Assembly: GCA_902798595.1 (NCBI GenBank)
Contig: CADBXE010000001.1
Location: 124,001-188,000 of the forward strand
Direction of reading: 5' to 3'
Length of the DNA: 64,000 nt
DNA from: an uncultured Erysipelotrichaceae bacterium
GTDB lineage: Bacteria > Bacillota_I > Bacilli_A > RFN20 > CAG-826
Shown here: piece after piece, positions 6,683 to 49,069 of the stretch
Position numbering within the stretch: position 1 is the first letter of the stretch
Layout: every line of letters starts with the position of its first letter
Notes under the pieces: model-generated
What the model saw: only the letters and a program-made list of their open reading frames with translations
Database searches by the model: none
Told to the model about the DNA's origin: nothing
Position numbers and translations under genes: made by a program

Positions 6683-8044
6683 ATGGACGGCAATATTGAA
6701 AATGTACGAAAGAATTATATTCTTAAAAGAACAGAAATTTTAATTCTTATCGTTAACAAAAATGAATTGAGAGGTTTTAAGACAAAACTTAATGATTGTG
6801 GCGTTAAAGAAGGTGAACCTATTCGAATTAATGATACGGAGGTTCATCCGTTCATAGCGAATGGCTATCATATTTGTTACTTTTTATTGCCTGGGAAAAG
6901 TGGACCTACTGAAGTTTGGAAAGCTTTTGACGCCGTAGCAGATGAATTTCCTAATCTTAAATACATAGCTAACATTGGTTGTTGCGCTACTACAGAAGAA
7001 GAAGTTAGAGATGTTGTTTTGATTGCTGAACGAGTATTTGATGCAGATTCAAGAAAAGAAGAAAAAAAAGCTATCTATACTGGACCTAGCAGGGAACACT
7101 ATTCAAGTGGCAACTATTTGAAAGAAGCTGCTTATGAAATAAAAGAAGAAGCAAAGGCAAAATATGATGTTGATTATTGTGGCATTATTTCGAGTTCTGC
7201 TGTTGTGAAAAATGGAGAATTAAAGTCGAAGTATATTTCAGCATATCCATCTGGTGAAGGAATTGAAATGGAAGGAATAGCTCTTTCAAACTACGCTTTT
7301 TCAAGAAAAATAGAATGGTTGATGATAAAAGGAACTAGTGATAATTGCACAGATAAAGAAGGCGGAAAAGGACAAGATAAAGCAACATATAACGCATCAG
7401 ACGTTTTCTTTGAACTATTAAAAAAAGCAGTTTTACAAAAAATGAGACCTACTGTCTTTATTGGAGGAGCTTTTTCAAGTATCAGCAAAAAGAAGTGCTT
7501 TGAAGTTGAAGACAACTCTGAATATCTTGGAACAGAGTTGCTTAAAAATGATTATAAATTAATTACAGGACTAGGGCTGATTGTTGGAACCAATATCTTG
7601 GCTGCTGCGTATAGATATTGTAATGGCTTAAAGAACAATAATTATGAAGAGTATATTGAAACATTTCCATTTCCAAGAACAATTAATGGGCAAAAGAAAG
7701 AACTTCTTATGCCGATATATAATAGCAATAGACAGCATATGATGGAAAAATCCGTTATATCAATGTTTATCTATGGGAGGAAATATAAAGAAGGCAAATA
7801 TAATGGGCTTATAAACGAGTTTAACGATGCTTATTCAGAGAATCTTCTCCGTTTTGTGATTCCAACTAAAAAAACGTGTTCAGACCATCTTTTTGACCTC
7901 CTCAAAGAGAATCATTTCGACGGGATGAACGGCATTATTGACGATGACTACAAAAAGATAAACACTAATACACAATTTAAAGATGCTGTTGCAATAGTGC
8001 TTAAAAATATCGATAGAATCGATCGCCATTTCTTTGGTGAATAA
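6683..8044 (+). CDS. Nucleoside phosphorylase/nucleosidase fused to a SLOG (STALD-type) sensor domain
   Basis: The 453-residue protein joins two folds. Residues 16-250 are a PNP/MTA-SAH nucleosidase-type domain with NIGCC (97-101), EMEG (195-198, ribose contact) and KGTSD (216-220, catalytic aspartate D220). Residues 255-440 look like a SLOG domain of the Sir2/TIR-associated type (STALD): strand PTVFIGGAF, then YKLITGLGLIVG (291-302). In ThsA of Thoeris this sensor binds a TIR-made cyclic ADP-ribose isomer. PNP-fold immune effectors elsewhere can strip adenine from ATP. A strong GAGGAGA ribosome site precedes the ATG, three bases after TIR 3. It is the last gene of the operon and the likely effector. 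Substrate and ligand are inferred. Confidence 0.78.
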   Translation: MDGNIENVRKNYILKRTEILILIVNKNELRGFKTKLNDCGVKEGEPIRINDTEVHPFIANGYHICYFLLPGKSGPTEVWKAFDAVADEFPNLKYIANIGCCATTEEEVRDVVLIAERVFDADSRKEEKKAIYTGPSREHYSSGNYLKEAAYEIKEEAKAKYDVDYCGIISSSAVVKNGELKSKYISAYPSGEGIEMEGIALSNYAFSRKIEWLMIKGTSDNCTDKEGGKGQDKATYNASDVFFELLKKAVLQKMRPTVFIGGAFSSISKKKCFEVEDNSEYLGTELLKNDYKLITGLGLIVGTNILAAAYRYCNGLKNNNYEEYIETFPFPRTINGQKKELLMPIYNSNRQHMMEKSVISMFIYGRKYKEGKYNGLINEFNDAYSENLLRFVIPTKKTCSDHLFDLLKENHFDGMNGIIDDDYKKINTNTQFKDAVAIVLKNIDRIDRHFFGE

Positions 8045-24833: not shown

Positions 24834-26477
24834 ATGACAATTGGTGAGAAAATCGTTCACCTTCGTATCGTGAACAATGTTTCGCAAGAAGAACTTGCTA
24901 AAATTTTAAAGACCTCAAGACAATCCTTATCCAAGTGGGAGAACAATGACACATTGCCTCCATTAGGTACGATTAAGGAATTATGCCAAATCTTTAAAGT
25001 GTCCGCCGATGAATTAATTGACGACACTATCGTCATCCATCGTGGCAAGAAAGTCGCTCTTCCTAGCGACAATATCAAAACCAAATATTTTGGTACTGAT
25101 GGCTTTAGAGGAGAGGCTAATGAATTATTAAATTCAGATAAAGCTTATAAAATTGGTAGATTCTTAGGTTGGTTCTACGCTAATCCTAAGTACAATATGC
25201 AAAAACCAGGCTATAGACCAAAGATCGTTATTGGTAAAGATACTAGAAGATCTTCTTATATGCTTGAATACGCAGTGGCTGCTGGTGCAGCGGCTAGTGG
25301 TGCGGATGTGGAATTACTTCACGTTACAACAACTCCATCAGTCTCCTACATCGTTAGACAAGACTGCTTTGACTGTGGTGTCATGATCACTGCTTCGCAT
25401 AACCCATTCTATGATAATGGTATTAAAGTCATTAACTCTAATGGTGAAAAACTGGAAGATGGTGTCGCCTATTTAGCGGAAGCTTATTTAGATGGCGATT
25501 TCAAAACATTAGGTTTGGAAGATGATGAAAACGATTTGCCATTCGCAAAACGTGGTGATATTGGCACAATTAATGACTATTCTTCAGGTAGAAATAGATA
25601 CATTGGTTACTTAATCTCTTTAGCCAAACATTCCATGAAGAAACTTAAAATTGGTTTAGATACCGCGAATGGCGCTTCTTGGATGATTGCTAAGAGTGTT
25701 TTCGAAGCATTAGGCGCCCAAGTTTATATTATTAACAACCATCCAGATGGTTTAAATATCAATGTTGATGCTGGTAGCACGCACATTGAAAAGTTCTGCA
25801 AGTTTGTCAAAGACAATGACTTAGATGTTGGCTTTGCTTTTGATGGTGACGCTGATAGATGTATCGCTGTTGATGAAAATGGTAAAGAAGTTGATGGCGA
25901 TAAGATTATGTACTTATTAGCCTGCAAACTTAAGAGTGAAGAATCTTTAGATAAGAATACAGTTGTAGCCACAATTATGTCCAACAGTGGTCTTGAAAAA
26001 GCCCTCAAAGGCATTGGCTGTAGTTTAGTAAGGACTAAAGTCGGTGATAGATTCGTCTTTGAAAAGATGATGAATGACGGTTATGTCTTGGGTGGTGAAC
26101 AATCAGGTCATATCATTATTAGAAAATATGCCACCACAGGTGATGGTGTTTTAACCGCAATCATGGTGACAGAAGAATTATTAGAAAGAAAAGAAACGTT
26201 ATCTAAGCTAGTGGCCCCAGTGAAATTATTACCACAAAAGACCAAGAACGTCAGAGTTACTGATAAGAACGCTGCTGTTGAAGATGAAGCTGTTAAAGCT
26301 AAGTTCGACGAAGTGAATAAAGAAATCGGTGATAACGGTAGAGCCTTATTAAGACAATCCGGTACTGAACCAGTCATTCGTATTATGGTGGAATATCCAA
26401 CATTACAAGGCTGTGATGAATATATCGAAAAGATCTATAACGTTGTTAAGAAAAGAGGCTTTGTCATCGATGAATAA
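24834..26477 (+). CDS. glmM: Phosphoglucosamine mutase with N-terminal XRE-type DNA-binding domain
   Basis: The 547-residue protein is about 100 longer than usual GlmM (about 450). Residues 1-63 are a cro/C1-type helix-turn-helix (VSQEELAKILKTSRQSLSKW). A linker leads to KYFGTDGFRGEAN (84-96), the classic GlmM start. Active serine S188 lies in TASHNP, the metal loop is DGDADR (337-342) and the phosphate loop is RQSGTEP near 505. GlmM converts glucosamine-6-phosphate to glucosamine-1-phosphate for peptidoglycan. AAGGGAG precedes the ATG and no internal start with a ribosome site is visible. The fusion suggests a metabolic enzyme that also acts as repressor. A phosphomannomutase role is the alternative. 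Confidence 0.88.
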   Translation: MTIGEKIVHLRIVNNVSQEELAKILKTSRQSLSKWENNDTLPPLGTIKELCQIFKVSADELIDDTIVIHRGKKVALPSDNIKTKYFGTDGFRGEANELLNSDKAYKIGRFLGWFYANPKYNMQKPGYRPKIVIGKDTRRSSYMLEYAVAAGAAASGADVELLHVTTTPSVSYIVRQDCFDCGVMITASHNPFYDNGIKVINSNGEKLEDGVAYLAEAYLDGDFKTLGLEDDENDLPFAKRGDIGTINDYSSGRNRYIGYLISLAKHSMKKLKIGLDTANGASWMIAKSVFEALGAQVYIINNHPDGLNINVDAGSTHIEKFCKFVKDNDLDVGFAFDGDADRCIAVDENGKEVDGDKIMYLLACKLKSEESLDKNTVVATIMSNSGLEKALKGIGCSLVRTKVGDRFVFEKMMNDGYVLGGEQSGHIIIRKYATTGDGVLTAIMVTEELLERKETLSKLVAPVKLLPQKTKNVRVTDKNAAVEDEAVKAKFDEVNKEIGDNGRALLRQSGTEPVIRIMVEYPTLQGCDEYIEKIYNVVKKRGFVIDE

Positions 26478-35022: not shown

Positions 35023-36705
35023 ATGAAGAAGTTTTTTAAGGGTTTATTACTCACCCTTGTAGTGCTTATTATCTTACCAATCGCTCTATTGTTCATCTTT
35101 GTCTTCGACACCGGCAAAATGGCGGTCACATACGATGATAATTTTACTCAGGAAGCAATGTCTAAAAAACTTGTTGTTGATTCCTTAGACAACACTGTTA
35201 CTGATAAGAAAGTCGAATTCAGCATCTCTGAACAAGATATTAATAACTATATCCACGCAGCGATTAAAGATAACACTTTGCTGAACAAGTATTTAACTCA
35301 ACTTGCTATCGATATCAAAGAAGATTCCTATGTTTTAAATGTTTCTGGTAAAGCTTGGTTCTTTGAAACAAGAGCAAAACTTACCACGACATTATCAAAA
35401 GAAACAGTCGTCTCTGCGGATGGTGAAAAAGAAGCCTTTGTTTTAACTGTTAAGAAGATGACTTTAGGCCGTTTAACAAAGCTAAAAGAAGTTATTTCAT
35501 TCTTTTTATCTAGATTCATTAATAATGAAACAATTGATGCTTTGACCAATTCAATTCACTTACATTCTGATTTAAAGAACTCGAAGTTATTTATCTATAC
35601 TTCAGATTTAAGAGAAATGATTAATAAAGGTATCAGTGGTGGCTCAGGCACTTCTGATTTCTATTTCTCCTTCATTAATGACTTCTTAGATTTAAATCTC
35701 ATCAACATTGATTTCTATGGTGGAGAATCCTTGAATATTGATGTCAATTTAGAGAGATTAACCGGTAATGATTATGATGCTTCTTTAGGCGAAAATGTCT
35801 ATTACCCAATGAACTATGATGCAACCACAACAAAGTTACTCATTAATGGTGAGGAAAAGAAACTTTCTTTAGATGTTATTAGAGAAGCACTAGTGTACTT
35901 AATGAATCAACCAAACCCAACCGTTAATATGTCCAATATTAATCTTGTGAGTGCTTTCTTATTTAATGGCTATAACGGCACTAACGTAGTCAATGGTGTT
36001 GATCTTTCCCCAATTGGAATTACTGTTCCTGAAACATATAGAGGCTTCAATTTAGTAACTTCAGAAGATATTGATACCATCCTCGCTAACGCGATTAGTA
36101 CATTTGATGGTTACTCTATGTCACTTAATAGTTTTGATATCGCTAAATTAAAGGAAAGCGAAATCAATCTCTTTATGAAAGCACAGAGTGCTTTAGGCCA
36201 TAAATTCTTCTTACAACGTGAAGTATCTGATGGTCAAAATAAGATTAATTACATTGCTTTAGACAATGCCTATATGAATCTTTATGGTGACGCTGCTATT
36301 ATCAGTGTCGGTCTTAATATTAATGGTTTAGAAACATGGACCACCTTAAAAATGGATGCTGATCTCGCTAATACAGATACTCACAAACTTGTTTATAAAC
36401 CAGGTAATCTATACTTTGGTAAAGCTAGTGAAAATCTAACAGTAAGTGAAGAATCTAGAAAAGTTATCTATGAAACACTTGCGGAAGCTGTCGATCAATC
36501 TTCCTTTAGATTTGATAGAGATGGCACAATGACAATCTCGTTTGATTCATTATTAACTAACGCGATTAATGGCATTGATACATCTAATCCAATCATGTCG
36601 CAATATAAAACATTCCTTCAAAATAACGCTGATATCAGTGTGACGATTGAAGGTGATGCAGTGACCGATAACTCAAGCGTGAAGATTCAAGCGGTTCGCC
36701 GCTAA
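35023..36705 (+). CDS. Large membrane-anchored extracytoplasmic protein, unknown function
   Basis: The 560-residue protein has one N-terminal membrane anchor (residues 7-28) and a long external part with repeated beta-rich segments, such as FSISEQDINNYI near 68, resembling YpmS-like or LPXTG-less surface proteins in feel but without a firm match. AAAGGAA precedes the ATG. It overlaps the convergent phosphatase by four bases. It may act at the cell envelope. Confidence 0.6.
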   Translation: MKKFFKGLLLTLVVLIILPIALLFIFVFDTGKMAVTYDDNFTQEAMSKKLVVDSLDNTVTDKKVEFSISEQDINNYIHAAIKDNTLLNKYLTQLAIDIKEDSYVLNVSGKAWFFETRAKLTTTLSKETVVSADGEKEAFVLTVKKMTLGRLTKLKEVISFFLSRFINNETIDALTNSIHLHSDLKNSKLFIYTSDLREMINKGISGGSGTSDFYFSFINDFLDLNLINIDFYGGESLNIDVNLERLTGNDYDASLGENVYYPMNYDATTTKLLINGEEKKLSLDVIREALVYLMNQPNPTVNMSNINLVSAFLFNGYNGTNVVNGVDLSPIGITVPETYRGFNLVTSEDIDTILANAISTFDGYSMSLNSFDIAKLKESEINLFMKAQSALGHKFFLQREVSDGQNKINYIALDNAYMNLYGDAAIISVGLNINGLETWTTLKMDADLANTDTHKLVYKPGNLYFGKASENLTVSEESRKVIYETLAEAVDQSSFRFDRDGTMTISFDSLLTNAINGIDTSNPIMSQYKTFLQNNADISVTIEGDAVTDNSSVKIQAVRR

Positions 36706-37145
36706 ATATTCTTAAATATATCGTGAATACAGTCTGTGATTTCGTCGCAGACTTTTTCATATCTACCAGTGTACCAAGGATCTTCTATTTCATAGATTCT
36801 TGGGGTGAATTTATTAATGCGATAAATAATGCCTTTATGGTCATCTAATTGTCTTAAAAGTGAATAATAGTTTTCATCGTCCATGCAAAAGATATAGTCC
36901 GCTTCTTCGTAGTCTGATTGTCTAATTCTTTGAGCGGCATGAGGGTATAAAGTAACTCCTCTTCTATAGAGCTCTCTTTTCATTGGAGGATAGACATCAT
37001 TACCGATTTCTTCAGAGGATGTTGCCCTGATAGAAATATTGAATTCCCTATCACGTCCTTGTTCTTTTAAGTATTGTTTGGCAATAAAAGCCGCAGCGGG
37101 GCTACGGCAAATTGAACCATGACAAACAAAGATGATGTTCTTCAT
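36702..37145 (-). CDS. Low-molecular-weight protein-tyrosine phosphatase
   Basis: The 147-residue protein carries the P-loop CHGSICRSP near residue 8 (CX5RS) and the general-acid loop EDPWYTGR near 121. Such phosphatases often control tyrosine kinases of polysaccharide export. It is the last gene of an operon after the two ABC exporter halves: the ATG overlaps the exporter stop in TAATG. Confidence 0.92.
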   Translation of the reverse strand: MKNIIFVCHGSICRSPAAAFIAKQYLKEQGRDREFNISIRATSSEEIGNDVYPPMKRELYRRGVTLYPHAAQRIRQSDYEEADYIFCMDDENYYSLLRQLDDHKGIIYRINKFTPRIYEIEDPWYTGRYEKVCDEITDCIHDIFKNI

Positions 37146-39145
37146 TATTCTAACTCAACAGCCCCCGTATAGAGCTGATAGTAGGCTCCTTTTTCAGCAA
37201 TTAAGGATTCATGATTACCTCTTTCGATAATCTCACCTTTATCTAAAACAAGAATGTAGTCAGCGTTTTGAATAGTGGATAATCTATGAGCGATAACAAA
37301 TGTTGTTCTGCCTTTCATTAATTGATCCATACCTTGTTGGACAAGTCTTTCGGTTCTGGTATCGATAGAAGATGTCGCTTCATCAAGAATCATAACAGGG
37401 GCATCAGCGATAGCCGCTCTGGCGATAGAGATTAATTGTCTTTGACCTTGTGAGAGGTTTGCGCCATCACCAGAAAGAACAGTATTGAAGCCTTGTGGTA
37501 ATCTCATGATGAAATCATAAGCATTAGCGATCTTTGCTGCTTCATAGACTTCTTCATCAGTCGCATCTAATCGGCCATATCTAATATTTTCCATGACTGT
37601 ACCTGTGAACAAGTTCACATCTTGTAAAATCACGCCTAAAGAGTGACGTAAGTCGTCTTTCTTAATCTTATTGATATTTATGCCATCGTAGCGGATTTTG
37701 CCATCCGCGATGTCATAGAAACGGTTAATCAAATTGGTGATGGTGGTCTTACCCGCACCAGTAGCGCCCACTAACGCGATTTGTTGACCTGGGTGAGCGT
37801 ACACAGAGACATTCTTAAGAACAGTCTTCTTACCATCGTAAGAGAAGTCAATATCGTCAATAACGATATCACCTTTAAGTTCAGTATATGTTAATGTGCC
37901 ATCAGCTTTATGTGGATGTTTCCAAGCGTAATATCTTGTCTTTTCGGATGTTTCAACGAATGAGCCATCTTCGTTATATTTGATATTTACTAAAGTAACA
38001 TAGCCTTCATCTGTTTCAACTTTTTCATCAATCATGTCAAAGCATCTTGATGCACCAGCGGTACCCATAACCACGAATGTCACTTGCTGTGAGAAGTTAG
38101 AAATGTTTTGTGTGAACATTCTAGATAACATTAAGAATGGGACGAGTAAGTTAGAGTAGAAGTCATCCGCTTCGATTTTATCGAAACCACCGATGAGTTT
38201 GAGGTTGAATGTTTCAACGTGATAAATCTTTGGTAAGAGATATAAGACACAACCTAAGATAACGATTAAGGCATACATAAAGTTACCAATGTTGCCATTG
38301 ATTGGCATCATGATATTGCCATGTATATTCGCGGTACTCGCGTTTTGATATAATTCGTCATTCACGACATCAAAGTCTTTTAAACTGTCTTCTTCGTGAG
38401 TGAAAACTTTAATAACTTTTAAGCCAGTAATACTTTCTTCGATATTACCTTCGACTTTACCCAAACTTCTTTGTTGAGCAACGAAGTATTTTGATGCACG
38501 TCCCCCGATGATTTTGGTGTTAAAGACCATCGCAACGGTACCTAAGATAACAATTAATGTCATCCAAATTGAGAACATCAACATGATGGCTAAAGCGCTT
38601 ATCGCGGTAATACCTGTGGCGAAGATATTTGGAATAGATTGAGAGATTAATTGTCTGATGGTGTCGATATCGTTAGTGTATAACGACATAATCGCACCAT
38701 TTTGGTGTGTATCAAAGTATTTGATAGGAAGCTTTTGCATATGAGAGAACATCTCGATACGGAAAAGGTTTAAATACTTCTGAGTAACAATAGCCATGGT
38801 TCTATTCCATGTCCATGAACAAATCACACCTAATCCATAAATACAGATTAAGGCAATTAATAAACCTGTTAAGTTAGCTTTAAGTGGGAATGTACCAAAT
38901 AAGGCAACATCAAAGACATCGGTAAAGAGATTAACACTACCGATTGGATTATTCGCTGGGATAGCTTTGGTTAATAAGTCAGTAATTAAGCTAGCGAAAA
39001 TACTACCACATAAGTTAACAGCGATTGAGAGGACGAGAGTAACTAAAGAAAGGATAAGTTCTAACTTAAAATTCTTCCATAAAGATTTGAATAATCTTTT
39101 AATGGTGCCTTTTTTTGGTTTAGCGTATTGCTTGATTGGTGGCAT
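37145..39145 (-). CDS. ABC exporter half, catalytically canonical subunit
   Basis: The 666-residue half-transporter has six membrane segments (about 20-370), then an ATPase: Walker A GATGAGKT, signature LSQGQ, Walker B MILDEATSS with the catalytic glutamate, and the H-loop AHRLS. An insert of about 40 residues (YAWKHPHKADG region) lies between the two domains. I chose the ATG at 39145, after AAGGAGGAG, not the ATG 99 bases upstream, which would overlap the preceding gene. It pairs with the gene just upstream as a heterodimeric multidrug/lipid-type exporter. Substrate unknown. Confidence 0.9.
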   Translation of the reverse strand: MPPIKQYAKPKKGTIKRLFKSLWKNFKLELILSLVTLVLSIAVNLCGSIFASLITDLLTKAIPANNPIGSVNLFTDVFDVALFGTFPLKANLTGLLIALICIYGLGVICSWTWNRTMAIVTQKYLNLFRIEMFSHMQKLPIKYFDTHQNGAIMSLYTNDIDTIRQLISQSIPNIFATGITAISALAIMLMFSIWMTLIVILGTVAMVFNTKIIGGRASKYFVAQQRSLGKVEGNIEESITGLKVIKVFTHEEDSLKDFDVVNDELYQNASTANIHGNIMMPINGNIGNFMYALIVILGCVLYLLPKIYHVETFNLKLIGGFDKIEADDFYSNLLVPFLMLSRMFTQNISNFSQQVTFVVMGTAGASRCFDMIDEKVETDEGYVTLVNIKYNEDGSFVETSEKTRYYAWKHPHKADGTLTYTELKGDIVIDDIDFSYDGKKTVLKNVSVYAHPGQQIALVGATGAGKTTITNLINRFYDIADGKIRYDGININKIKKDDLRHSLGVILQDVNLFTGTVMENIRYGRLDATDEEVYEAAKIANAYDFIMRLPQGFNTVLSGDGANLSQGQRQLISIARAAIADAPVMILDEATSSIDTRTERLVQQGMDQLMKGRTTFVIAHRLSTIQNADYILVLDKGEIIERGNHESLIAEKGAYYQLYTGAVELE

Positions 39146-39146
39146 A

Positions 39147-40949
39147 TTATTCTCCTCCTTTCTGTGTTTGTGATTGATAAACTTCACGATAAATATCATT
39201 ATTTTGCAATAACTCTTTATGTGTACCGATACCATTGATTTCACCGTTATCTAAAACAATGATTTGATCAGCTTCTTCGATGGAATTAATTCTTTGAGCG
39301 ATGACAATTTTTGTCATATTTGGTAAATCATTCTTTAAAGCCGTTCTAATTAATCTATCGGTCTTTGTATCAACTGCAGAAGTGGAGTCATCTAAGATTA
39401 AAATCTTTGGAGACTTTAATAAGGCTCTAGCGATACATAATCTTTGTTTTTGACCACCAGAGAAGTTAGCGCCACCTTGCTCAACGACTTTATCAAGTCT
39501 TTCTTTAGTGGCTTCAATGGTTTCAGAGATTTGGGCCACTCTTAAAGCGGCAATCATTTCTTCTTCACTAGCGTCTTTTTTGCCCCAACGCATGTTAGAG
39601 GCAACTGTACCAGAGAATAAGAAGTTCTTTTGTAAGACAACTGAAACAGAATCTCTTAATGTTTTGAGATCGTATTCCTTAACATCTTTACCACCCACTA
39701 AAACTTGACCTTCAGTGGTGTCATATAATCTGGAAATTAAATTAACTAATGTGGATTTACCAGAACCGGTGGAACCGATAATACCAACGAATTGGCCAGA
39801 CTTAATATTGATATTTAAGTTACTAACTGCATAACGTTCCGCTTCTTTTTTATATTTAAAGGAAACATTGTTAAAGACAACAGAACCATCTTCAACAGTC
39901 ATCACTGGTTCTTCAGGATTCTTAATTGTGGGTTCTTCATCAAGCACCTCGCTGATACGTCTAATGGATTCAAAGGACATAACTAACATGGTGACAATCA
40001 TGGAAATCATCATGATGGACATTAAGATTTGGATGCCATAAGTGAGCAACGCTGACATTTGAGGAATGGATAAATCGCCCCATGTATAACCATAGATAAT
40101 TTTGCCATCTGCAGTTCTTTCACCTGTATCAAACGCGGAAGCGGTATTGAAGATTAGAATACCGGAAAGGAACATTGTTAATAGGTAAACAACATGAATA
40201 GATGTATTCATTAATGGAGTCATTAAAGCAACAATCTTTTCCGCTTTAATAAAGTCCCTAGATAAGTTATTAGAGGCAGTGGAGAACTTGTTATCTTCAT
40301 ACTTTTCACGCACGAAAGATTTAACCACTCTCATACCTGCGACATTTTCTTGGACAGATTCATTTAAAGCGTCGTAACGCTTGAAGACTCTTCTGAAGAT
40401 GCCCATTGCTAATCTTGCAAGAACAATAAAGATAATACCGATAACTGGAATAGCAACAACGAAGATCCACGCCATATTGCCACCGACAACGAACGCCATA
40501 ATTGCGGAGAATATAAGCATTAATGGGGCTCTAACAACAATTCTAATCGCCATGGCGAATGAGTTTTGTGTGTTAGTGACATCTGTAGTCATTCTAGTCA
40601 CTAAGCTAGAAGCATGGAAATGGTCGATATTTTCAAAAGAGAATGATTCAACTTTTGCGTATAAATCTTTTCTTAAATTTTTCGCAAAACCACATGCAGC
40701 ATAGGAAGCAAACCTACCACCTAAAATACCACATGTAATAGAAACGATAGTCATTGCAAAGATTAAAATGAAATAAGGCACTAATTCTTCAATGCCATTA
40801 ACAATTTCAATCTTTCCGACAAATTCGGACATGATATATGGTAAGAAGCATTCAACAGCGGCTTCACCAATCATGAATAAAGGAGTGATGATGGCGAATA
40901 TTTTATATTCCCTGACGCTTTTCAAGACTCTGAGTATTGATTTAAACAT
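39147..40949 (-). CDS. ABC exporter half with degenerate ATPase site
   Basis: The 600-residue half-transporter has an N-terminal six-helix domain and an ATPase with Walker A GSTGSGKST, signature FSGGQ and Walker B ILILDDSTS, where aspartate replaces the catalytic glutamate. This asymmetry is usual in heterodimeric exporters such as BmrCD. The switch region reads AQRIN where AHRLS is usual, so the H-loop histidine is also replaced. A GGAGGGAG site precedes the ATG. The operon promoter at 40985-41013 carries a palindrome in its spacer. The phosphatase is the third gene. Confidence 0.9.
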   Translation of the reverse strand: MFKSILRVLKSVREYKIFAIITPLFMIGEAAVECFLPYIMSEFVGKIEIVNGIEELVPYFILIFAMTIVSITCGILGGRFASYAACGFAKNLRKDLYAKVESFSFENIDHFHASSLVTRMTTDVTNTQNSFAMAIRIVVRAPLMLIFSAIMAFVVGGNMAWIFVVAIPVIGIIFIVLARLAMGIFRRVFKRYDALNESVQENVAGMRVVKSFVREKYEDNKFSTASNNLSRDFIKAEKIVALMTPLMNTSIHVVYLLTMFLSGILIFNTASAFDTGERTADGKIIYGYTWGDLSIPQMSALLTYGIQILMSIMMISMIVTMLVMSFESIRRISEVLDEEPTIKNPEEPVMTVEDGSVVFNNVSFKYKKEAERYAVSNLNINIKSGQFVGIIGSTGSGKSTLVNLISRLYDTTEGQVLVGGKDVKEYDLKTLRDSVSVVLQKNFLFSGTVASNMRWGKKDASEEEMIAALRVAQISETIEATKERLDKVVEQGGANFSGGQKQRLCIARALLKSPKILILDDSTSAVDTKTDRLIRTALKNDLPNMTKIVIAQRINSIEEADQIIVLDNGEINGIGTHKELLQNNDIYREVYQSQTQKGGE

Positions 40950-40984
40950 CTTTTCTCCCTCCTTTTCATGTATATGCTCAAAAA

Positions 40985-41013
40985 ATTGTAAAGTTCGATA
41001 ACGAACTTGTCAA
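40985..41013 (-). promoter_or_regulatory. Consensus promoter of the ABC exporter operon with operator palindrome in the spacer
   Basis: On the minus strand TTGACA (41013-41008), a 17-base spacer and TACAAT (40990-40985) form a near-perfect sigma-A promoter. The spacer is almost filled by AGTTCG-TTAT-CGAACT (40992-41007), a 6-bp perfect inverted repeat. A repressor or MerR-like regulator is likely. Confidence 0.7.
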
Positions 41014-41019
41014 TCAAAA

Positions 41020-41048
41020 TGCACACATGCATGCAAAAGTTGTATAAT
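41020..41048 (+). promoter_or_regulatory. Promoter of glf
   Basis: TGCACA (41020-41025), 17 bases, TATAAT (41043-41048), preceded by TG. The -10 ends nine bases before the ATG, leaving a very short leader. Confidence 0.5.
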
Positions 41049-41057
41049 TAAGGGGCT

Positions 41058-42167
41058 ATGAAAACTAATTATGATTATCTAATTGTTGGTGCTGGTTTAT
41101 ATGGCACCGTTGCCGCTCACGAATTAAATAAACGCGGCTATAAAGTACTCGTCGTGGAAAAAAGAAACAACATCGCGGGTAATATCTATACCGAAGAAAT
41201 TGAAGGCATCCAAGTTCATAAGTATGGTCCACATATCTTCCATACTTCCAAGAAAGAAATCTGGGACTATGTTAATCAATTTGCAAAGTTCAATGACTTC
41301 ATCAATATGCCTTTAGCGTTCTATAAAGGCAAATACTACAACATGCCTTTCAACATGAACACTTTCCATCAAATTTTTGGTGTGAATACCGCAGAAGAAG
41401 CGAAGGCGTGTATCGAAAAAGAGATTAAAGAAGCCAATATTAAGGAACCAAAAAACCTCGAAGAAAAAGCTATCTCTATGGTGGGCACAACCATCTATGA
41501 AATGCTCATTAAAGGCTATACCCAAAAACAATGGGGCAGACCATGCAACGAACTCCCACCTTTCATCATCACTCGTTTACCAGTGAGATATGAATACAAT
41601 AACAATTACTTCAATGATATCTATCAAGGTATCCCAATCGGTGGTTATACCAAATGGATTGAAAATATGCTCAAAGGCATTGAAGTGAGATTAGGTGTTG
41701 ATTACTTAGAACACAAAGAAGAATTAAACAAACTTGCTGATAAGATTATCTATACTGGTGAGATTGATAAGTTCTTTGGTTACAAATATGGCGCTCTTGA
41801 ATGGAGATCATTAAGATTTGAAGAAGAAATCATTGATAAGCCAGATTATCAAGGCAATGCGGTTGTTAACTATACCGAATTTGAAGTTCCATATACCAGA
41901 ATCGCGGAACATCAATACTTTGAACCAGGGCAAAAACACAATAAAACTGTAATTACAAAAGAGTATTCCAAGACATGGACTTTAGGTGACGAAGCTTACT
42001 ACCCTATTAATAATGATCGCAATAGTGTGTTATACTCAAAATATCAAGAATTGGCCAAAGAAAACCCAAATGTCTACTTTGGTGGTCGCTTAGGCACCTA
42101 TTCCTACTACAACATGGACGTGGTAGTAGAGAAGGCTTTGCAATTAGTAGAGTCGTTAATTCATTAA
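41058..42167 (+). CDS. glf: UDP-galactopyranose mutase
   Basis: The 369-residue flavoenzyme converts UDP-galactopyranose to UDP-galactofuranose for surface glycans. The N-terminal FAD motif is YLIVGAGLYGTVAAHEL, followed by RNNIAGNIYTE and YGPHIFHTS near 57. Further conserved segments are YTQKQWGR near 154 and GRLGTYSYYNMD near the end. Length is standard. It precedes a GT2 enzyme and may supply it. The ATG has no classical ribosome site. Confidence 0.96.
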   Translation: MKTNYDYLIVGAGLYGTVAAHELNKRGYKVLVVEKRNNIAGNIYTEEIEGIQVHKYGPHIFHTSKKEIWDYVNQFAKFNDFINMPLAFYKGKYYNMPFNMNTFHQIFGVNTAEEAKACIEKEIKEANIKEPKNLEEKAISMVGTTIYEMLIKGYTQKQWGRPCNELPPFIITRLPVRYEYNNNYFNDIYQGIPIGGYTKWIENMLKGIEVRLGVDYLEHKEELNKLADKIIYTGEIDKFFGYKYGALEWRSLRFEEEIIDKPDYQGNAVVNYTEFEVPYTRIAEHQYFEPGQKHNKTVITKEYSKTWTLGDEAYYPINNDRNSVLYSKYQELAKENPNVYFGGRLGTYSYYNMDVVVEKALQLVESLIH

Positions 42168-42235
42168 TTAACTTGCTTAAATATTCAACTTTACTATAAT
42201 GTGTAAGGGCTGAGGGCCAGTTAGAAACAAAAATT

Positions 42236-43270
42236 ATGAAATACATTACATTTACAATCCCATGCTATAACTCCCAAGAATATATGCGCCACTGTATCGA
42301 TAATCTCGTTGCAGCAGGTGATGAAGTCGAAGTCATCATCGTCAATGACGGTAGCAAGGACGACACAGGCAAAATTGCTGACGAATATGAAAAGAAATAT
42401 CCAACTATAGTTAAAGCTATTCAAAAAGAGAATGGTGGACATGGTTCGGGTGTTATGGCGGGTATCCGCAATGCAACCGGCTTGTTCTTCAAAGTCGTGG
42501 ATAGTGATGACTGGGTTGAGACAAAAGATGTTTTAGATTTGCTCATGTTAATCAAACAACACGAAGCAGAAAACGCTAATGTAGACTTATACATTACAAA
42601 CTATGTTTATGAACATGCTGTTGACAATTCACAATATGTCATGCATTACCGTAAATGCTTACCAGCGGAAAAGATTATCTCCTGGGAAGATATGAAACGT
42701 GTGAAATTAGAAACAGTCTTCTTAATGCACTCTTTACTTTATAGAACTGAAAAGTTAAGAGAGTCTAAGATGGAACTTCCAAATCACACATTCTACGTTG
42801 ATGACATTTATGCCTATCAACCACTTCCATTTATGAAGAAAATTTTCTATCACGATTTAGATTTATATCATTATTTCATTGGTAGAAGTGATCAATCCAT
42901 CAACTATGGCACAATGTGTAAGAGATATGAACAACAAATGAGAGTATTCAAAATCATGTTCTGTGCTTATACATATGATGAAATCTATAAACAACCAAAA
43001 TTCTTGAAGAAATATATGGTTAAATGGTTGATGACCATTTGTGGTATCACCATCATGACTATCGTTGGCACTAAAGAAGATAAAGAAACACGTTGGAAAG
43101 TGTTTAAGGAATACTTCGAAGAACTCAAGGGTATCGATAGAAAACTCTATAACAAGATTCGCCATCGTTCCTTAGCGGCCTTCGCCTTCACTCTTCCAGG
43201 CTATAGCTTAAAGTCATTTGCCTCTAGAAACGTTTATAAAATCTTCCAGAAGAGATTGAAACTTGGTTAA
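42236..43270 (+). CDS. GT2-family glycosyltransferase
   Basis: The 344-residue enzyme has a GT-A domain: TFTIPCYNSQEYM near 4, IIVNDGSKDDTG near 34, ENGGHGSGVMAG near 62 and FKVVDSDDW near 84 (metal-binding DSDD). The C-terminal region has amphipathic helices typical of EpsJ-like exopolysaccharide enzymes. A TATAAT at 42195 gives a 30-base leader without a clear ribosome site. It ends at a shared terminator. Confidence 0.88.
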   Translation: MKYITFTIPCYNSQEYMRHCIDNLVAAGDEVEVIIVNDGSKDDTGKIADEYEKKYPTIVKAIQKENGGHGSGVMAGIRNATGLFFKVVDSDDWVETKDVLDLLMLIKQHEAENANVDLYITNYVYEHAVDNSQYVMHYRKCLPAEKIISWEDMKRVKLETVFLMHSLLYRTEKLRESKMELPNHTFYVDDIYAYQPLPFMKKIFYHDLDLYHYFIGRSDQSINYGTMCKRYEQQMRVFKIMFCAYTYDEIYKQPKFLKKYMVKWLMTICGITIMTIVGTKEDKETRWKVFKEYFEELKGIDRKLYNKIRHRSLAAFAFTLPGYSLKSFASRNVYKIFQKRLKLG

Positions 43271-46305: not shown

Positions 46306-47469
46306 TTATTTTAGTTCAGAAGGAATTTCGTTACGTATATTCACGAGGTGCACATTATGCTCCCCGTATTTAGCTTTTGTTTCTTTTAAAACGTTATCTA
46401 ATTCATCATTAGGGACAAGGGCGATAACTGAACCCGCAAAACCGCCACCGTTAATCTTAACGCCAGCTTTTTCATGAGATGCTTTAATAATTAATTCACA
46501 AGCCTCCAAAGGAGAACCTTGCTTATCCTCAACATACATATTATGTAATAAATCAGTGGATGACATTCTTGATTCGTTCATTAATTTAGTAAGAACATCT
46601 AATTCACCTTTTTCAATCGCGTCAAAAGCTTCTTTAACGCGTCTATTTTCGCCAAAGAAGTGTAGTGCTCTTTCATATGCTAATTCACCACATTTATCAA
46701 TCACATCTTGCTTGTTTTTGATAACTTCGGCTTCTTCAACTTCTCTTAAATATTCTTTTTCGAAGTAGTGGGCAACCTTATACATATCATCAGGTATAGC
46801 TTTATATAAATGGTCTAGTCCAGCGTGACTACCACCAGAATTAACAATCACAAAAGAATAGTTTTCTAGTGTTACTTTTAATGGCTTAACAACTGGATTA
46901 TCGATATCTTCAAAATCAATATAAACAAGGCCACCATAGGCCACACCAATTTGATCTAGTAAGCCACACATCTTGCCGTAGTATTCTCTTTCCGCAAATT
47001 GAGAAGCCTTACATAAAGTCATAAGTGGGATTTGTTCATTATTAAATAACTTATTGAATGTTTGAGCTAATAATAATTCAAAAGCAGCGCTACTACTTAC
47101 CCCTGCGCCACCAGGGATTTGACTCTTGATATAAATATCAAAACCACCAATCTTATATTCTTTAGCTAAGTAAGCAGCAACGCCTTTCACTAAAGCATCT
47201 GGTTTGCCTTTAATATCATCATTTTTATCTAAACTAGATAAATCAATCGTGGATTCAGTAAAACCTTCACTATAAAGGTGAACTAATAAGTCATCTCTTC
47301 TTTTAATTGAGGCAAAGATAGATAAGGAACAAGTGGCAGCCATGCACAAACCATGGTTATGGTCTGTATGATTACCTAACACTTCAAATCTACCGCCACA
47401 ACTAAGATATAGTTCTGGTTCAGCTTTATATTTTTCTAAGAATTTATTCTTGAGGTAATTCTTCATCAT
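46306..47469 (-). CDS. galK: Galactokinase
   Basis: The 387-residue GHMP kinase phosphorylates galactose at C1. It shows GGRFEVLGNHTDHNHG near 25, GGAGVSSSAAFELL near 118 (phosphate loop) and GAGFGGS-like GGGFAGSVIA near 342. The start overlaps the preceding DUF368 gene by 26 bases. galT and galE are not in the window, so the rest of the Leloir pathway must be elsewhere. Confidence 0.95.
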   Translation of the reverse strand: MMKNYLKNKFLEKYKAEPELYLSCGGRFEVLGNHTDHNHGLCMAATCSLSIFASIKRRDDLLVHLYSEGFTESTIDLSSLDKNDDIKGKPDALVKGVAAYLAKEYKIGGFDIYIKSQIPGGAGVSSSAAFELLLAQTFNKLFNNEQIPLMTLCKASQFAEREYYGKMCGLLDQIGVAYGGLVYIDFEDIDNPVVKPLKVTLENYSFVIVNSGGSHAGLDHLYKAIPDDMYKVAHYFEKEYLREVEEAEVIKNKQDVIDKCGELAYERALHFFGENRRVKEAFDAIEKGELDVLTKLMNESRMSSTDLLHNMYVEDKQGSPLEACELIIKASHEKAGVKINGGGFAGSVIALVPNDELDNVLKETKAKYGEHNVHLVNIRNEIPSELK

Positions 47470-48442
47470 TCTTTTCTAACTCTACTCTCTTTCTTTGAGC
47501 GACCACTAAACGATAGCTTAAGAAAGCACATAATGCTAATGCCCCAAAACCAATAATCATTTCTAACCACATTGGTAAGACAGGATGAATCTTTAAGGCA
47601 TCACCTAAGTTAGCATCCATCCACACTCTATAGTAATTAACGATATTGGAATTAAAGAATAAGACAAATATTGATCCGGCAATGAAACCGATAATTGCAA
47701 AGAATGTTTCTTTACGCCATTTCTTAAGTAAGATGTTCATGATTTTAGAAACAACCACAACACCAATTAAACAACCAACAGCGAAACATCCTAAGACACC
47801 AAATAGGGCACCCGTGTGTGTGAAATCACCGTGTTTAAGCATTTCACTAGCCCAGTCTTTAACATTGTCCACAAGTGGTCTATAGAAGCCTAAGATTAAT
47901 AAAATCAAAGAGCCTGATAAACCAGGAACAGTTAAAGCCACCGCGGCAACTGCGCCTACAGGGATAAGTAATAAATATAACCACCAAACTGGTTGAGGAT
48001 TAAATAAGCTATCAACGGTAAAGCCGTTAAGTCCAATAATAACGTTCAAAACACCTAAGATGATAACGAATATCGCACCTAGAGCAATTAATAAACCATA
48101 TTTCTTAGTAATCTTAGTGCCTTTAACTTCATCAGTAATGCCTGGGAATGAACCAAGTAAGAAACCAGCGAATACACAGATTAATACGAACATCAGGTAT
48201 TCAAAGGCGTAAGAGAAAATGATAATACACGCTACGACGGCAATAATAATGCCTAGTAATATAGGGATTAAAACTTTGATAGCCCAGCCAAATTTCTTTC
48301 TAAAATTGTTAACTGCGGCAATGATATCTTCATAAACGTGGAAGATGACCGCAATCGCGGCACCAGAAACACCAGGAATCGCGGCTCCTGCGCCGATGGC
48401 TAAACCAGCCACAAGTTTTCTAAACCATTCTTTAATTTTCAT
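47444..48442 (-). CDS. DUF368 membrane protein (PopT-type polyprenyl-phosphate transporter family)
   Basis: The 332-residue protein has 8-9 membrane helices and the DUF368 opening GLAIGAGAAIPGVSGAA near 14, with a matching second half AVALTVPGLSGSLILL near 168. The family includes PopT, which recycles undecaprenyl phosphate across the membrane. The first gene of the galactose operon, it overlaps galK by 26 bases. TATACT (minus strand, 48456-48451) ends eight bases before the ATG, with no ribosome site. Confidence 0.87.
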   Translation of the reverse strand: MKIKEWFRKLVAGLAIGAGAAIPGVSGAAIAVIFHVYEDIIAAVNNFRKKFGWAIKVLIPILLGIIIAVVACIIIFSYAFEYLMFVLICVFAGFLLGSFPGITDEVKGTKITKKYGLLIALGAIFVIILGVLNVIIGLNGFTVDSLFNPQPVWWLYLLLIPVGAVAAVALTVPGLSGSLILLILGFYRPLVDNVKDWASEMLKHGDFTHTGALFGVLGCFAVGCLIGVVVVSKIMNILLKKWRKETFFAIIGFIAGSIFVLFFNSNIVNYYRVWMDANLGDALKIHPVLPMWLEMIIGFGALALCAFLSYRLVVAQRKRVELEKNDEELPQE

Positions 48443-48450
48443 ACAAAAAG

Positions 48451-48471
48451 AGTATACAAAATTTATTTTGT
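48451..48471 (-). promoter_or_regulatory. -10 box and 16-bp palindrome before the DUF368-galK operon
   Basis: ACAAAAT-TT-ATTTTGT (48456-48471) is a perfect dyad touching the minus-strand -10 TATACT (48456-48451). It lies in the divergent region with pth and may be a sugar-responsive operator. Confidence 0.45.
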
Positions 48472-48492
48472 TTAGTAAATCTTCCGTTGTGC

Positions 48493-48498
48493 TATAAT
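48493..48498 (+). promoter_or_regulatory. Extended -10 box of pth
   Basis: TGCTATAAT ends 16 bases before the ATG at 48515. The GTG at 48500 would lie before the transcription start, which supports the ATG as the real start. Confidence 0.55.
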
Positions 48499-48514
48499 TG
48501 TGGCACGTAGAATT

Positions 48515-49069
48515 ATGAAACTTATTGTAGGCTTAGGCAATCCAGGTAAAAAATACGACAAGACTCGTCATAACATGGGCTTCATGGCAATCGACCTTCT
48601 CGCAGACCAGGCAAAGATCGATATTGATAAGGAAGTTTTCCATGCTTTACTCGGCAGAGGAAAGATTTATAACGAGGACGTGATATTGTTTAAGCCACAA
48701 ACATTCATGAATCTATCCGGAACAGCGGTGCAAGAAGTCGTCCATTATTTCAAGATTGAAATGGAAGACATTATCGTTGTTTACGACGACATGGCTTTAG
48801 AACCAGGAAGAATTAGAATTCGTAAAGAAGGTTCCTCCGGTGGTCATAAGGGCATGCAAAACATTATTGATTGTTTATCAACCGACAAGATTAAAAGAAT
48901 TCGTATTGGTATTGGTGAACCAGGTGAATGGGATACTGTTGACTTTGTTCTTTCTAAACCACTTAAAGACGAACAACCTTTAATCGATGAAGCGATTGAA
49001 AACGCTGTTGGTGCATTAAAGGAGGCTATTAAGTCTGATTTTGATCGGGCGATGAACAAATTTAATTAG
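48515..49069 (+). CDS. pth: Peptidyl-tRNA hydrolase
   Basis: The 184-residue enzyme frees tRNA from prematurely released peptidyl-tRNA. It has KLIVGLGNPGKKYDKTRHN at the start, with the catalytic histidine in RHN, FKPQTFMNLSG near 55, VYDDMALEPGRIR near 86 and GHKGMQNI near 107. I start at the ATG that begins this motif. It is followed 16 bases later by mfd, as in Bacillus. Confidence 0.96.
   Translation: MKLIVGLGNPGKKYDKTRHNMGFMAIDLLADQAKIDIDKEVFHALLGRGKIYNEDVILFKPQTFMNLSGTAVQEVVHYFKIEMEDIIVVYDDMALEPGRIRIRKEGSSGGHKGMQNIIDCLSTDKIKRIRIGIGEPGEWDTVDFVLSKPLKDEQPLIDEAIENAVGALKEAIKSDFDRAMNKFN

Follow-up and report, generated by a model that had tools for sequence, protein, structure and literature searches.

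The window analysed here is a stretch of 64,000 nucleotides from an uncultured Erysipelotrichaceae bacterium (genome G000, 77% complete). One locus in it carries an ABC exporter operon, a divergent gene and, between them, a promoter whose spacer is filled with a palindrome. These features are as follows.

36702..37145, minus strand: low-molecular-weight phosphotyrosine phosphatase-family protein (PF01451, E 1.1e-22)
37145..39244 (listed frame), minus strand: ABC2, second half-transporter, with ILDEATS
39147..40949, minus strand: ABC1, exporter half-transporter, TM287-like, with the Walker B ILILDD carrying a non-canonical D (3qf4_A, E 5.3e-122)
40985..40990, minus strand: -10 hexamer TACAAT (sequence reading and promoter scan)
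40991..41008, minus strand: predicted operator AAGTTCG-TTAT-CGAACTT, an 18-bp dyad filling the -35/-10 spacer and conserved in relatives
41008..41013, minus strand: -35 hexamer TTGACA (sequence reading and promoter scan)
41058..42167, plus strand: glf, UDP-galactopyranose mutase, divergent (TIGR00031, 402.5 bits; cut-off 303.75)

ABC1 and ABC2 are adjacent and each contains both PF00664 and PF00005, as is the case for heterodimeric exporters. The translations also reveal the mark of a degenerate ATP site, namely ILILDD in the former and ILDEATS in the latter. Comparison with the locus L056 suggests that ABC2 probably starts in truth at the ATG of MPPIKQ, some 100 bases into the listed frame. 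The phosphatase gene abuts the end of ABC2 and, judging by this layout, belongs to one operon with the two transporter genes. The original prediction stated that no regulator gene is adjacent, and this is right: the neighbours are glf, ABC1, ABC2 and the phosphatase gene. The glf gene has its own promoter-like sequence, TGCACA-17-TATAAT, at 41020–41048. Its -10-like TATAAT ends only 9 bases upstream of the glf ATG (41043–41058 from the hexamer to the ATG), with a similar arrangement in close relatives; with this spacing, the glf transcript would be leaderless or nearly so. Elsewhere in the window, positions 24834–26477 encode what we take to be a phosphoglucosamine-mutase-like protein with an apparent N-terminal Xre-type helix-turn-helix, an unusual fusion if it is real.

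The exporter promoter occupies 41013 to 40985 on the minus strand and consists of TTGACA, a 17-base spacer (AGTTCGTTATCGAACTT) and TACAAT. It points at ABC1, whose start (40949) lies 35 bases beyond the -10 hexamer. The near-ideal quality claimed for this promoter is borne out: it has 11 of the 12 consensus bases and is the top of 18 promoter-like sites found by scanning 36600–42300. Shuffled sequences gave an expectation of 22.2 sites, and thus the weaker matches in this region are at chance level. The core dyad AGTTCG-N4-CGAACT, which had been claimed to occupy the spacer, is indeed located there at 40992–41007, and an additional A/T pair extends it to 40991–41008 with arms of 7 bases. The window presents a sigma-70-type promoter, with near-consensus hexamers separated by 16–18 bases and a dyad between them, and a dyad lying over the operon promoter in the manner of MarR-type autoregulated exporter operons.

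By itself, the palindrome is only mildly unusual and not beyond chance: dinucleotide shuffling of the 108-base intergenic region produced a palindrome with 7-base arms at some position in 139 of 2000 trials. What raises it above chance is its conservation in relatives. A search for the same palindrome elsewhere in the genome, which the original prediction had suggested, showed that the 12/12 copy in the window is the sole one in G000. Three copies with one mismatch all fall within long reading frames (coding), and with up to two mismatches allowed there are 31 places, compared with 73 when the control pattern is reversed. The 77%-complete genome yielded no second operator. The pattern AAGTTYR-N4-YRAACTT with at most one mismatch was also searched for in the 16 genomes of the genus. 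The counts were of the same order as those of the reversed control (14 versus 7 in G000; 13 versus 20 in G004), and no regulon is therefore claimed.

The relatives were examined from two directions. One is homology to ABC1, which makes no use of the motif. The close named relatives are metagenome-assembled genomes of Bacilli, Bacillales or Erysipelotrichaceae, several of them from ruminant digestive tracts. Among the relatives reached in this way, G003, G019, G022, G028, G030, G031 and the locus L060 have GTTCG-N4-CGAAC upstream of a marR gene, which is directly followed by ABC1; the dyad lies inside a promoter of the same build, and G012 is arranged likewise. Further, more distant marR-ABC operons have different dyads, or none that stands out. 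In L060 (3890–6002), the marR-ABC operon follows two genes which are presumably pth-like and DUF368-like. The genes that we take to be their counterparts in the window (47444–49069) lie about 6 kb from the exporter operon, which indicates that this neighbourhood has been split.

The other direction is a pattern search in 224 genomes of the family. With at most one mismatch, the element was found in 28 genomes, and the reversed control gave 4 matches. The exact element occurs at 27 sites (G211, the only family match without an exact site, is excluded from this count), and all 27 precede this ABC operon; the invariance of the arms among them is partly by construction, because the search pattern required the arms. 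A marR gene lies between the operator and the ABC operon at 20 of the 27 sites (17 recognized by HMM, and those in L205, L209 and L216 by eye), while in the window the operon contains none. At the remaining 7 sites, all in the genus of the window, ABC1 directly follows. The N4 core is CATG, TATG, CATA, TATC or CACG where marR is present, and TTAT or TATT where it is absent. The adjacent MarRs match MarR_2 with E values of 1.9e-5 to 1.7e-7, and two of the three scanned exceed the curated cut-off; the L057 MarR scores below the Pfam cut-off. Given that all 27 exact copies stand before this operon and 20 of them are accompanied by marR, the palindrome can be regarded as an inherited MarR-type autoregulatory operator. 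The idea of an operator built into the exporter promoter is thus well supported: the same element heads the marR-ABC-ABC operons of related genera, its arms are kept, and changes preserving the symmetry have occurred twice among relatives.

The distribution of marR within the genus was examined by tblastn and by a profile built from nine adjacent MarRs. Orthologs were found in 3 of the 16 genomes, G003, G010 and G012 (tblastn E ≤ 1.4e-54; profile E ≤ 2.6e-58). By both methods, none of the adjacent type was found in the other 13, which include the 77%-complete G000. Under the assumption of independence, the product of the missing fractions of these 13 genomes is 4.8e-11. The strongest profile match left in the 13 was a MarR confined to G005 (E 1.4e-14). 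Short DtxR-like proteins reached 1e-5 at best, and a G004 MarR, which is of a different type, 1.4e-4. In the ABC1 tree, the 13 genomes lacking marR form one clade (support 99/95) with the three marR-bearing genomes as sisters, and thus a single loss in the genus suffices. G025, which belongs to a different genus, is also without an adjacent marR and would represent a second loss. Just before its ABC1 start (L034), an ATGTTT..AAACAT-type dyad precedes a -10-like sequence; this different dyad perhaps reflects a second change of regulator.

What happened to the operator after the loss of marR can be followed in 12 of these 13 genomes, in which the promoter is readable (G001, at a contig edge, is omitted from the promoter counts). 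Ten of the 12 retain a perfect dyad of 7 pairs. The 18-base dyad is identical in G000, G006, G007, G008, G011 and G014, and that of G015 differs in the core. Two different paired changes, each with one substitution per arm, are seen in the others: AGTTTG..CAAACT in G004 and G005, and AGTTCA..TGAACT in G009. In the two exceptions, one arm is damaged with mismatched pairs (G002), or the left arm is gone and the operator is lost (G013). In G002, a single in-frame TGA also interrupts ABC1 (L062, about 7201–7203). Among the ten intact promoters, which were selected by the intact-site pattern, the spacer has an identity of 0.89, compared with 0.69 for the upstream 30 bases and 0.59 for the leader; both hexamers are identical and the spacing is 17 bases in all of them. 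Changes on both sides occur at 2 of the 7 dyad pairs and none occurs when the partners are slid; since 41 of 500 shuffles score as high, this covariation of the aligned arms is supportive of kept symmetry and not decisive.

We consider it more likely than not that the palindrome is an inherited MarR-type operator whose marR has been lost and that it is still bound by an unlinked protein. By established MarR biology, a dimer on this dyad would span the interval from -35 to -10 and keep RNA polymerase out, and a ligand would free the promoter again; this is the most likely original mechanism. The ancestral state would have been an autoregulated operon, marR-ABC1-ABC2-phosphatase, in which MarR sitting across the spacer blocked RNA polymerase until its ligand removed it. 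The branch leading to the window would later have lost the marR that stood between the promoter and ABC1, so that ABC1 now follows the operator-promoter immediately, and an unlinked DNA-binding protein most likely took over the site and still represses the exporter. The observation that carries this reading is that the dyad has been mostly kept, and symmetrically reshaped, since marR was lost; this makes present binding the likeliest state. The anatomy, the element shared with marR operons, the absence of marR and the conservation are observed; a present binder, its binding, repression and induction are inferred from them and from MarR biology. The repression of the exporter, its tightness and its relief by a ligand, as put forward in the original prediction, would follow by analogy with MarR biology.

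The N4 core differs between the operons with and without marR, and the original contacts are thus not all kept. This difference may be viewed, tentatively, as the trace of a regulator swap, in which an unrelated and unlinked transcription factor took over after the loss of marR and the site was refitted to it. In such a case, the core would have changed from the CATG/TATG type to TTAT, the arms would have become more symmetric, and the -10 hexamer would have changed from CATAAT to TACAAT, with the dyad then reaching roughly into both promoter hexamers.

The main rival reading, which we regard as rather unlikely, is that the palindrome is a fossil: no protein has bound it since the loss of marR, the exporter is expressed constitutively, and the palindrome persists only because its position between two promoter elements makes it decay slowly. 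An operator is expected to decay after its repressor is gone. The loss of the site in G013 and the damaged arm in G002 are what decay predicts and count against a site that is still bound; the changed core, and the finding that none of the MarR, TetR or DtxR-like proteins emerged as a candidate binder, point in the same direction. Promoter constraint could also account for part of the conservation. However, simple decay does not readily explain why 7 perfect pairs were kept in 10 of the 12 readable promoters against a leader identity of 0.59, or why both arms changed together in two lineages.

The search for a present binder covered the candidate MarR, TetR and DtxR-like proteins, and no site resembling the ABC operator was found in their own promoters. 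The short DtxR-like protein, which lies near a feoB-like sequence in L150, was rejected as no such site occurs in the ten promoters checked. The MarR at G005:C17 was set aside because it is present in one genome only. The TetR at G000:C7:66000 occurs in 11 of the 13 genomes without marR, the operator-less G013 among them, and was not detected in the three that carry marR; its own region has GATAGA/TCTATC-type repeats, a dyad different from the ABC operator, and it was rejected as well. The LexA box was ruled out for the palindrome, as its arms run the opposite way.

One protein deserves separate consideration, an OhrR-like MarR (G000:C18:20854) adjoining a glutathione-peroxidase-like gene (gpx), which might now control the exporter. 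It is the sole MarR of G000 above the Pfam cut-off, and its distribution is suggestive: 9 of the 13 genomes without marR have it, and it was not found in the marR-bearing G003, G010 and G012, nor in the operator-less G013. Nevertheless, its own gpx operon is preceded by the dyad ATTGTATACAAT, which is unlike AAGTTCG-N4-CGAACTT; the gpx-linked MarR units (L138–L146, L228) share ATTGTATACAAT, slightly altered in 2 of 9 genomes. Furthermore, G009 has an intact operator but no copy of the gene at its syntenic cysE locus (this locus is not visible in G008). Control of the exporter by this MarR is accordingly quite improbable. In G002, gpx occurs without the linked MarR and without a ATTGTATACAAT-type dyad.

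Finally, there is only a slight chance that the palindrome acts at the RNA level, as a terminator-like or regulatory hairpin within a longer transcript. A scan flags it as terminator-like and the paired changes would fit an RNA stem too, but it is flanked by the -35 and -10 hexamers of an 11/12 promoter, with the 17-base spacing kept in 10 of 10 intact relatives. The predicted start is downstream of it, the genes on its two sides are divergent, and it heads the operon in the marR-bearing genomes as well.

In the literature searched at the abstract level, no prior description of this operator was found. The locus offers a modest, testable example of an operator outliving its repressor, and would leave general views of MarR proteins and of ABC exporters as they are. 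Its use lies in the fact that one genus presents, at the same exporter, repressor with operator, operator alone, and neither, so that the loss or replacement of a regulator can be followed. It also indicates that an exporter need not be unregulated when no regulator gene lies beside it.

Comparison with known systems places the locus as follows. Autoregulated efflux operons of the MarR family (MarR, MexR and others) have an inverted repeat over the promoter and the repressor gene first. The present operons share the promoter inverted repeat and, at 20 of the 27 related sites, the leading repressor gene; the lineage of the window departs from them in keeping the operator without marR. The exporter itself resembles the heterodimeric TM287/288 type in the similarity of ABC1 to chain A of 3qf4, which we take to be TM287, and in having the non-canonical Walker B residue in one subunit (ABC1) and DE in the other (ABC2). 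It is unlike TM287/288 systems in that a low-molecular-weight phosphatase gene and a predicted MarR-type operator are linked with it. The resemblance does not give the substrate or the inducer, for which the original prediction had suggested a drug or lipid stress. PMC5343134 describes how transcription factors of bacterial regulons undergo non-orthologous replacement, by which related lineages place equivalent genes under different regulators. Unlike the cases given there, where different regulators govern the same pathway, it is the site itself that seems to have been kept here after the regulator was lost.
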